Shown here in pieces: positions 40-1,517 of a stretch of DNA of 33,169 nucleotides. A program made the translations under genes and the position numbers. The notes under the pieces are model-generated. The model had not been told where the DNA came from and ran no database searches. It saw nothing but the letters and a program-made list of their open reading frames with translations. Within the stretch, counting starts at the first letter, position 1; every line of letters begins with the position of its first letter. This stretch comes from an uncultured Ferrovum sp. (GTDB lineage Bacteria > Pseudomonadota > Gammaproteobacteria > Burkholderiales > Ferrovaceae): contig CAIPTD010000076.1 of NCBI GenBank assembly GCA_903867885.1, positions 1 through 33,169 on the forward strand, read 5' to 3'.

Positions 40-1086
40 TCATGGCAAGCTGTACCAAATTGAGCGTCCACCACCATGTCTCGCCAGTAGCCCTTTTTTA
101 ACAAGATTGCCGAACGTTGTTTTAAGGGTATTGGGGCTAGCGCCATATTCGCGGACCATATCCCTTGACGTTACCCGGCCATGATCTCGAACGTAATCCA
201 AAATTTGGACGGCTAACTCTGGCAATGCAGTCATCACTCCTTTTTCTCGCTCAACCTTGGCGGCAAGTCTGCGTTTTTGTTGTTGCAATGCCCGCATAAA
301 GAACAGTAGCCAAGGCTGCCAGTTTGGCGCTTCACTATGCAAGGATTGCTGGGTTTGGCGCAGAGCCAAGTAGTAACCCTCCTTGCTGTTCTCAATGACG
401 CTTTCTAGCGAGCTATAGGGCACATAGGCGTAACCCGCCTGGAGCAGTAAGAGCGTGGTCAATATTCGACTCAGTCGGCCATTGCCATCTTGAAAAGGAT
501 GGATTTCTAAAAAAGTGACTGTGAACACAGCGACGATCAAGAGTGGGTGCAGACGCCCAAGTTCGCGCGCATCCTTTAACCACTCAACCAGCTCAGTCAT
601 GCGTTGCGGCGTGTCAAACGGAGGGGCTGTCTCAAAAACGACGCCAACCATCTTGCCGTCGGCATCAAAGGCGACGACATTGTTTGATAATTTCTTGTAC
701 TCCCCCCTATGACGTTTATCCTTTTGGCTGAAACGCAAAAGGTCGCGGTGTAACTGCTTGAGATGGTTCTCGGTGACGTGGATGTCGTCAAAGGCGTTAA
801 AAATCATCTCCATCGTCTCGGCATAGCCTGCAACCTCTTGCTCATCGCGGCTATCAAATTTCTTAATTTCCAGCTTGGAGAGAAGTTTTTCGACCTCACG
901 GTCTGTTAGTTTGCTGCCTTCAATTCGGGTTGAGGAACCAATACTCTCAATGGTGGCCACATGCCGCAGCGCATTGAGTCGTTCCGGAGCAAGCGTTCCA
1001 AGGGCGCGCCAAGCCCCTTTGAACTCGTCAACCTCGCTCAGTAAGTTGAGCAATTCAGCCGTAATTTGGATAGTTTCGGTTTTCAT
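40..1086 (-). CDS. Fic family protein (AMP-transferase) with C-terminal winged helix
   Basis: 348 residues. Fic enzymes usually transfer AMP from ATP to a hydroxyl on a target protein. The full Fic motif HPFQDGNGR is present, with catalytic His near residue 196 and the GNGR anion-hole loop at 201-204, so the active site looks intact. An N-terminal (S/T)xxxE(G/N) inhibitory motif is visible as S52-xxx-E56-G57, which marks a self-inhibited class II Fic. Residues about 285-345 look like a winged helix-turn-helix (TSRDMVREYGASPNTLKTTF), so the protein may bind DNA. No separate antitoxin gene is seen, and none is expected for class II. The upstream DNA carries a 10-bp repeat array, and the nearest other gene traces are remnants of a restriction subunit and a transposase, so this is probably acquired DNA. 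The target protein is unknown. Confidence 0.93.
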   Translation of the reverse strand: MKTETIQITAELLNLLSEVDEFKGAWRALGTLAPERLNALRHVATIESIGSSTRIEGSKLTDREVEKLLSKLEIKKFDSRDEQEVAGYAETMEMIFNAFDDIHVTENHLKQLHRDLLRFSQKDKRHRGEYKKLSNNVVAFDADGKMVGVVFETAPPFDTPQRMTELVEWLKDARELGRLHPLLIVAVFTVTFLEIHPFQDGNGRLSRILTTLLLLQAGYAYVPYSSLESVIENSKEGYYLALRQTQQSLHSEAPNWQPWLLFFMRALQQQKRRLAAKVEREKGVMTALPELAVQILDYVRDHGRVTSRDMVREYGASPNTLKTTFGNLVKKGLLARHGGGRSIWYSLP

Positions 1087-1098
1087 CGTGTTGAAAGT

Positions 1099-1216
1099 AC
1101 GCCTGATTAGACCCGATTGTAAACCAGAATAGACCTGAATAGACCTGAATAGACCTGAATAGATGTTGAATGATTGCTTTACGACAACCCGAATGGAGGC
1201 CTGATTAAGCCCGAAT
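1099..1216. repeat. Array of degenerate 10-bp direct repeats upstream of fic
   Basis: Read on the plus strand, units fit the loose consensus A-(G/A)-(A/G)-C-C-(C/T)-G-A-(A/T)-T. Three perfect tandem copies of AGACCTGAAT occupy 1131-1160. Related units lie at 1099-1108, 1109-1118 and 1121-1130, with a 2-bp insertion before the last. A second cluster is at 1185-1194, 1197-1206 and 1207-1216, also with a 2-bp insertion. A period of one helical turn directly upstream of the fic start codon (1086) suggests a stacked protein-binding site. The winged helix of Fic itself is the obvious candidate binder, but this is inference. A simple-sequence expansion without function is the alternative. Confidence 0.75.
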
Positions 1217-1262: not shown

Positions 1263-1517
1263 CATCTGCGGACTGGGGGAGTTTGCCCCGGCGGAAAGGT
1301 TCTTCCTGCCTACTATTTGGAAAGACTGTTCAATTCGGAGGAATACCATCGTTACATTCGACACTTCGCTTCCGGCACATTAGTTTTGCACTTGAATTTG
1401 AGCGGCTTGCCAGATGTAGATGTAATCTCCGCTTTTCATGCGGAGATTATGCGGCTTATTCACCGCAAATGCATTGCCTGTAATTGTTGCCACTCTGTCC
1501 TGGATTTCGGAGGGTGA
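1263..1517 (+). pseudogene. C-terminal remnant of type I restriction specificity subunit (HsdS)
   Basis: An open frame without a good start reads AYYLERLFNSEEYHRYIRHF, then ASGTLVLHLNLSGLPDVDVI, then an AFHAEIMRLIHRK-like stretch. This is the usual pattern of the end of an HsdS target-recognition domain (YYL..L.S.....I...A.GT...hLNLSgL..v.V) followed by the conserved helix that begins near '..F......I..KI..N'. HsdS subunits are about 400 residues and direct sequence recognition by type I restriction-modification enzymes. Here only about 60-70 codons survive, with no N-terminal half and no hsdM or hsdR nearby, so the piece is dead. Fic genes are often found inside type I restriction loci, which fits its position beside the fic gene. 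Confidence 0.6.
1423..1449. repeat. Perfect 10-bp inverted repeat (hairpin) inside the HsdS remnant
   Basis: TAATCTCCGC at 1423-1432 is followed by the 7-base loop TTTTCAT and GCGGAGATTA at 1440-1449. The stem is perfect. No T-run follows on either strand, so it is not an ordinary intrinsic terminator. It falls in the coding remnant of the restriction subunit. Function unknown. Confidence 0.6.

Follow-up and report, generated by a model that had tools for sequence, protein, structure and literature searches.

Phased direct repeats in front of a winged-helix fic gene as the predicted operator of its own product

The question raised by this locus is what reads a series of short DNA repeats that stands directly in front of a fic gene. 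The locus lies in a stretch of 33,169 nucleotides from an uncultured Ferrovum sp.—positions 1-33169 of contig CAIPTD010000076.1, here called the window—and comprises a gene for a Fic protein with a C-terminal winged helix and an array of nine decamers at 1099-1216, all oriented as fic. The original prediction, made from the letters of the window, had described this array and considered a self-regulating Fic plausible. From a comparison with relatives of the gene, we regard the array as very probably the autorepressor operator of fic, read by Fic's own C-terminal winged helix. The elements are, from the distal end of the array toward the gene:

1216-1207, minus strand: unit 1 of the array, ATTCGGGCTT, distal triplet
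1206-1197, minus strand: unit 2, AATCAGGCCT, distal triplet
1194-1185, minus strand: unit 3, ATTCGGGTTG, distal triplet, after a step of 12 base pairs (bp), recognized by eye
1160-1151, 1150-1141 and 1140-1131, minus strand: units 4-6, three identical copies of ATTCAGGTCT
1130-1121, minus strand: unit 7, ATTCTGGTTT, contained in one exact match to the pair pattern
1118-1109, minus strand: unit 8, AATCGGGTCT, stepped 12 bp from unit 7 and the first unit of the pair next to the promoter
1108-1099, minus strand: unit 9, AATCAGGCGT, the second unit of that pair
1086..40, minus strand: fic, 348 amino acids, ATG start at 1086

The steps between these units measure 10, 12, 34, 10, 10, 10, 12, and 10 bp, and a scan of both strands with a site model recovers seven of the nine, missing units 3 and 7. 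Tandem Repeats Finder reports 4.1 copies of a period of 10 at 1123-1163 with 96% matches. Identity at lag 10 amounts to 0.48 in the 130 bp upstream of fic, and the best 20-bp run at this lag matches at 20 of 20 positions; neither value was reached by any of 5000 dinucleotide-preserving shuffles. This confirms nine degenerate 10-bp units near the fic start, three of them identical and in tandem. The uniform 10-bp period that had been claimed along with them holds for most steps, but two steps measure 12 bp, and it is the combination of 10 and 12 that is conserved.

Homologues were gathered from whole genomes, from one genome each of 84,980 species, from viral contigs, and from plasmids. The species survey contributed the best 80 of 540 confirmed relatives—a set that favors close ones—while the viral contigs gave 39 relatives and the plasmids 63 records, 10 of which were fetched. 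By record title, the hosts belong to the Beta-, Gamma-, Alpha-, and Deltaproteobacteria, Verrucomicrobia, Armatimonadetes, Obscuribacterales, and the candidate division FCPU426; relatives also reside on plasmids of Cyanobacteria. With loci below 35% identity omitted, and four more that lacked a start, 152 upstream regions were left, some of them in front of partial or broken genes. The reading frames of the fic homologues in L002, L006, and L009 are broken, and decamers still stand upstream in L002 and L006. Subtracting two regions with less than 120 bp upstream and 22 near-duplicates gave 128 nonredundant upstreams for the lag test. The protein-motif set held 154 full-length proteins, 152 of them with 100 bp upstream; L160, L173, L055, and L176 failed the site model, and dereplication at 90% protein identity left 95 loci. 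Another decamer is visible in L173, L055, and partly L176 despite this failure.

A match of at least 8 of 9 at lag 10 lies within 100 bp of the start in 106 of the 128 upstreams, and in none of the controls (0/128 inside the coding sequence, 0/124 at -300 to -200). Other lags score in fewer upstreams: lag 12 in 31, lag 22 in 32, and lag 20 in 21. The motif is thus present and not absent upstream of fic relatives, one of the points on which the original prediction was to stand or fall. Neighboring plus-strand sites in the 95 loci are separated by 10 bp in 154 intervals and by 12 bp in 64, with no other interval counted above 10, and hence the array reads as direct repeats stepped 10 plus 12 bp. 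Where two pairs are found (44 loci), their commonest distance is 34-35 bp, seen in 17. A minus-strand site is absent from the 180 bp scanned in 70 of the 95 loci, the window included; a minority carries inverted distal sites. The number of plus-strand sites per locus rises to seven, as seen in 5 of the 95 loci. Six viral loci (L161, L162, and L164-L167), whose proteins are at least 98% identical, hold 3 to 6 tandem AAATGGATGG copies—possibly an operator of variable length.

Could such repeats arise without any function? Chance and a simple tandem repeat are ruled out by the shuffles, the control regions, and the conservation across relatives. The three identical copies of the window read as a local expansion: about 20 bases there, the length of two units, are missing from the closest relatives, L058 (93% protein identity) and L002 (84%). 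Because of these two extra units and of the variation from 3 to 6 in the viral loci, slippage seems to set the copy number on top of a conserved array. That the whole array is functionless slippage, or an iteron-like repeat of plasmids—63 plasmid records do carry relatives—is scarcely credible: the degenerate units hold their 10/12-bp phase and their core though the other upstream sequence has diverged, and they covary with the protein, whereas slippage accounts for copy number only.

In the own genome, all five exact matches to the degenerate pair lie within the fic array. With up to one mismatch allowed, 31 matches (the five exact ones included) stand against 44 for the reversed control; a regulon beyond fic in this genome was hence rejected, as exact pairs occur only at the array and mismatched ones do not exceed the control. 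Across 369 genomes of the class, ATGGGTGTWWWTGGGTGTA finds eight matches in eight genomes (G082, G086, G146, G267, G322, G337, G390, and G417) and its reversed control one. All eight lie 13 to 16 bases before, and codirectional with, an independently found fic homologue. The pattern ATYCGGYATAATCSGGYAT gives two overlapping matches, both before the fic of G151. In viral contigs, ATGGGTGTAWWTGGGTGTA occurs in 55 stretches with fic behind the pair in 2, as judged by a check of 200 bp for open reading frames; ATTCAGGTCTATTCAGGTCT occurs in none; and ATCCGGTATAATCCGGTAT in one, where the repeat has a period of 21 bp and the 4,192 bases searched contain no convincing Fic (E 0.078). About 50 of the 55 contigs (L198-L252) share a repeated element, seen in variants of CCGACTCCATTCCATACTATA-GGTTTGTAGTCCATAATAATGGGTGTATATGGGTGTATTATA, that has no relation to fic and contains a similar pair by coincidence. 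With fic in only 2 of 55, decamer DNA alone was rejected as a fic marker in viral contigs.

The protein behind the array combines an enzyme core with a putative DNA reader. Pfam places the Fic domain of the window protein at residues 104-214 and a winged helix at 293-346, with Penicillinase_R as its best match and HTH_DeoR as a further one. In an AlphaFold2 model from 38 alignment rows (mean pLDDT 86.4, pTM 0.77), residues 318-330 form the final helix of the winged-helix domain, the predicted recognition helix, and strands 335-337 and 344-346 lie on either side of the wing residues 339-341. The C-terminal winged helix named in the original prediction is thereby borne out. The canonical FIC motif is HxFx(D/E)GNGRxxR, and the N-terminal inhibitory motif of class II reads (S/T)xxxE(G/N). 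Both are present: HPFQDGNGRLSR at residues 196-207, with H196, P197, F198, G201-R204, and R207 invariant across the alignment of 38, and S52-TRI-E56-G57 before the core, with S52, R54, I55, E56, and G57 likewise invariant. By both motifs, the protein is a class II-type Fic AMP-transferase of predicted activity. The nearest solved sequence, 8uqu (E 2.5e-37), is the N-terminal domain of a Bordetella bronchiseptica Fic. The window gene was probably acquired, because its promoter stretch had no match in the four congeneric genomes searched.

If Fic reads the array, the letters of the units should follow the residues of its winged helix. The in-register unit is AATCCGGTAT in the clade of the window, AAATGGGTGT in a large clade of about 65-72% identity, AAATGGATGG in one viral clade, and AATTGGATAT, TATCGGGTAT, or others elsewhere. 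Variable protein columns—267 in total, 59 of them within residues 286-348—were ranked by mutual information for each motif position. Positions 6 and 8 are nearly invariant. For positions 1-5, 7, and 9, all top-ranked columns fall within the winged-helix part: residue 318 for positions 4 and 5, 323 for 9, 341 for 2, 339 for 1, 335 for 3, and 307 for 7, the association being weak for positions 1 and 3. Residues 318 and 323 belong to the recognition helix, and 341 to the wing. Residue-base counts were taken over the 95 loci, with a position counted only if both copies of the pair agree. At position 4 (n=82), R318 goes with 62 T and 1 C, and P, Q, G, or A318 with 18 C and 1 T. At position 9 (n=77), Q, E, D, or G323 goes with G in 48 of 48, and A, V, K, N, or T323 with 21 A, 1 G, and 1 T; L323 (2 G, 2 A) and R323 (1 G, 1 C) are mixed. 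At position 2 (n=83), K341 goes with 11 T and 1 A, and R341 with 69 A and 2 T.

Common descent might produce such a pattern by itself. Traits were hence simulated, with about as many changes as observed, on a tree built from residues 1-280 alone, and the best of 17 candidate contact columns was taken each time; the observed association was reached in 0, 0, and 3 of 300 simulations for positions 4, 9, and 2. Sign tests on independent pairs gave no discordant pair in three comparisons, though 3 to 5 pairs per comparison cannot yield significance; for residue 323 D/N versus position 7, those listed show 0 to 2 concordant and 0 discordant pairs. By its Fic domain, L079 falls inside the 16-row branch of the window (SH-aLRT 97 in a quick tree whose inner forks are weak). 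Its recognition helix SRNTLKEHF and wing GKAT are those of the other clade, and so is its unit, TTATGGGTGA/ATATGGGTGT. L072 is intermediate both in its helix (SGNTLKEHF) and in its unit (AATCGGGTGG).

Unit letters and the residues of wing and recognition helix hence appear to evolve together, with each lineage keeping its own operator. This covariation with Fic's own recognition helix and wing points to Fic as the reader of the array, and lends the self-regulating Fic of the original prediction its support. A conserved phased operator by itself does not identify its reader, and a host regulator other than Fic might bind the decamers. We consider this very unlikely: unit letters track three residues of the predicted DNA-contact surface of Fic across hosts of several phyla, and one pair pattern is met in 369 genomes only before fic.

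What would Fic do at the array? For this, the pair nearest to the gene was set against the promoter in 45 of the 95 loci, those with a best pair ending 10-16 nucleotides (nt) ahead of the start codon. A TATAAT-like hexamer (at least 4 of 6) begins at the last base of the pair in 37 of the 45; in the control, taken at the inner junction of the pair, where the same decamer letters occur, it is found in 0 of 45. A second -10 register two bases earlier (pair offset 17) reaches at least 4 of 6 in 29 of 45. The best -10 match ends 5-13 nt before the start codon in these loci, and a Shine-Dalgarno-like 4-mer exists in only 15 of the 95; the fic mRNA is hence likely leaderless. In the window, the corresponding elements are:

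1118..1123, minus strand: possible -35, TTTACA, 18 bp from the possible -10
1094..1099, minus strand: possible -10, TACTTT, 3 of 6 to TATAAT, 7 nt before the ATG; weak here and stronger in relatives

The distance from the first base of the gene-nearest pair to the start is 30-33 nt in 48 of the 95 loci and 34-47 nt in 36. For 24 of these 36, an in-frame ATG or GTG lies within 33 nt upstream, so that the start may be misassigned there.

In the proposed mechanism, each decamer would be one half-site, and Fic monomers—or one arm per dimer—would occupy successive direct repeats in head-to-tail orientation, spaced by roughly one turn of the helix. As the gene-nearest pair occupies the space between -35 and -10, bound Fic would block RNA polymerase, and negative feedback would hold down the level of an AMP-transferase that may be toxic. 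The distal group, with 34 bp from unit 3 to unit 4, might add cooperativity or bridging. Alternatively, Fic might bind the array with an effect mainly on the enzyme, in that occupancy of the operator switches AMP transfer on or off, while the gene is controlled only secondarily, or even positively. DNA raised the activity of a related Coxiella Fic with a winged helix-turn-helix (wHTH) more than 22-fold in the part of the report available, but the stimulating DNA was random (PMC10628234). Arrays that extend beyond one promoter pair—the loci with up to seven sites and the viral ones with 3 to 6 copies—would suit such a switch, whereas a pair that sits on a -10-like box and is absent elsewhere in the searched genomes looks like promoter control. 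We therefore hold this alternative to be unlikely and retain autorepression as the preferred reading.

How does this compare with known systems? PDB entry 7xux, a 380-amino acid FIC protein that we take to be CccR, shows low similarity to the window Fic (E 5.6e-8). CccR of Yersinia pseudotuberculosis, a FIC protein with a helix-turn-helix (HTH) domain, represses its own promoter and is a type VI effector, according to the accessible part of its report (PMC9755527). By the same source, it unites enzyme and repressor in one chain—a Fic domain with a C-terminal HTH—and acts at its own promoter near -35/-10 on 10-bp half-sites (PMC9755527). The window protein has the same domain order and is predicted to share the other features. 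Its operator, however, consists of two inverted 10-bp repeats 26 bp apart (PMC9755527), whereas the window array holds direct repeats stepped 10 and 12 bp, which in relatives often form two groups. A CccR-type operator was rejected for the window array, as the far-spaced inverted repeat is absent.

SoFic (PDB 3eqx/3zcn) is, like the window protein, a class II Fic (PMC12249575) with a C-terminal wHTH (PMC10628234). The PADLOC SoFic profile matches residues 10-345 of the window Fic (E 2e-49), and the fold matches SoFic structures at 19-20% identity in fold alignments; the NCBIfam SoFic equivalog scores 66.5 bits, below its cutoff of 550. The accessible part of the report on the Sofic anti-phage system describes no operator (PMC12249575). 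That system bears a small antitoxin gene (AS1) downstream; the window contig ends 39 bases past the fic stop. For CbFic2 of Coxiella burnetii (PDB 8cil), also a Fic with a wHTH, DNA binding was shown, with random DNA and without a known specific site, and DNA binding of SoFic had not been shown, as stated in the part seen of that report (PMC10628234). A parallel in DNA geometry is found outside the family: BldC of Streptomyces is described, in the available part of its report, as an HTH protein that forms cooperative head-to-tail oligomers on direct repeats, with sites of variable length, but it is MerR-like, 68 amino acids long, has no enzyme activity, and is not a relative (PMC5859096). A search of titles and abstract openings of open-licence PMC articles found no direct-repeat operator of a Fic protein and no recognition code for one. 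The original prediction, which knew of no described operator of this form, thus stands within the literature searched as regards the form, but self-regulation by a Fic is already published with the inverted repeats of CccR. Fic autorepression is hence known, and what has no precedent in this literature is the phased direct-repeat form with its recognition code.

Several points weigh against the autorepressor reading. The sequence would fit activation as well as repression. The 12-bp step lies about 1.5 bp off a helical turn, and the CccR dimer, whose two DNA-binding patches are about 70 A apart in the part of the report at hand, is a better fit for inverted sites with a spacer than for direct repeats placed side by side (PMC9755527). 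The promoter was anchored in only 45 of the 95 loci, and start codons are uncertain among the others. The -35 element is weak—even at its best offset, -5, TTGAC reaches at least 4 of 5 in only 6 of 45 loci—and a consensus promoter scan listed none at 1050-1500 of the window. Regarding the covariation, traits change only 4-8 times on the tree, with which a paired sign test cannot reach 0.05, and position 10, where 6 of 67 differ from T, has its top column at residue 30 of the Fic domain instead of the winged helix. The site model was seeded with seven hand-entered units and rewards self-similarity, and bare decamer pairs are not fic-specific in viral contigs.

The operator claim is confined to the closer group of Fic proteins and does not extend to those below 36% identity, where 3 of the 16 listed (L007, L011, and L018) show a 9 of 9 match at lag 10. 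In L007 (about 32% identity), the pair TATCTGCGAG at 1421-1439 stands right before the start at 1453 and may be a further variant of the decamer design with another letter code. In L011 (873-891) and L018 (2677-2695), a lone pair AATGGGTGTAAATGGGTGT lies upstream of a second, SoFic-like Fic type and faces away from it, like the trace of a decamer-type fic that has since been lost. The window itself encodes HNLRMKSGDYIYIWQA at 1401-1439 (minus strand, in the direction of fic), which resembles the first residues of this second family as found in L018; the match is weak (13 amino acids, 77% identity, E 0.32), with a start a few bases above 1439, and the segment is probably the remnant of a second fic gene upstream. 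The two types co-occur in L122, and on Agrobacterium plasmid L182 the first type is in tandem with a Fic that shares 51% identity with the second.

A more far-reaching idea, which we find rather improbable, is that of a self-contained switch, in which a single gene supplies the Fic toxin, its repressor, and a DNA address of its own. While bound to the phased direct repeats, Fic would be kept in one defined state of activity; plasmid or phage DNA that enters with matching decamers would titrate it off the promoter and so raise Fic output in the invaded cell. Since unit letters and recognition residues drift together, the lineages might form compatibility groups like the immunity groups of phage repressors, with the copy number (3 to 6 in the near-identical viral loci) setting the threshold.

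Several Fic proteins bear a winged helix without a known DNA target, and the decamer pair provides a predicted single-site operator for a large group of them. This group spans several phyla, plasmids, and viral contigs, and its predicted three-residue recognition code is testable: AATCGGGTAT pairs can be set against AAATGGGTGT pairs with the matching residue swaps P318R and T323Q. Together with CccR, the array suggests that at least two operator designs serve the self-control of Fic proteins—far-spaced inverted repeats in CccR and phased direct repeats in the window.
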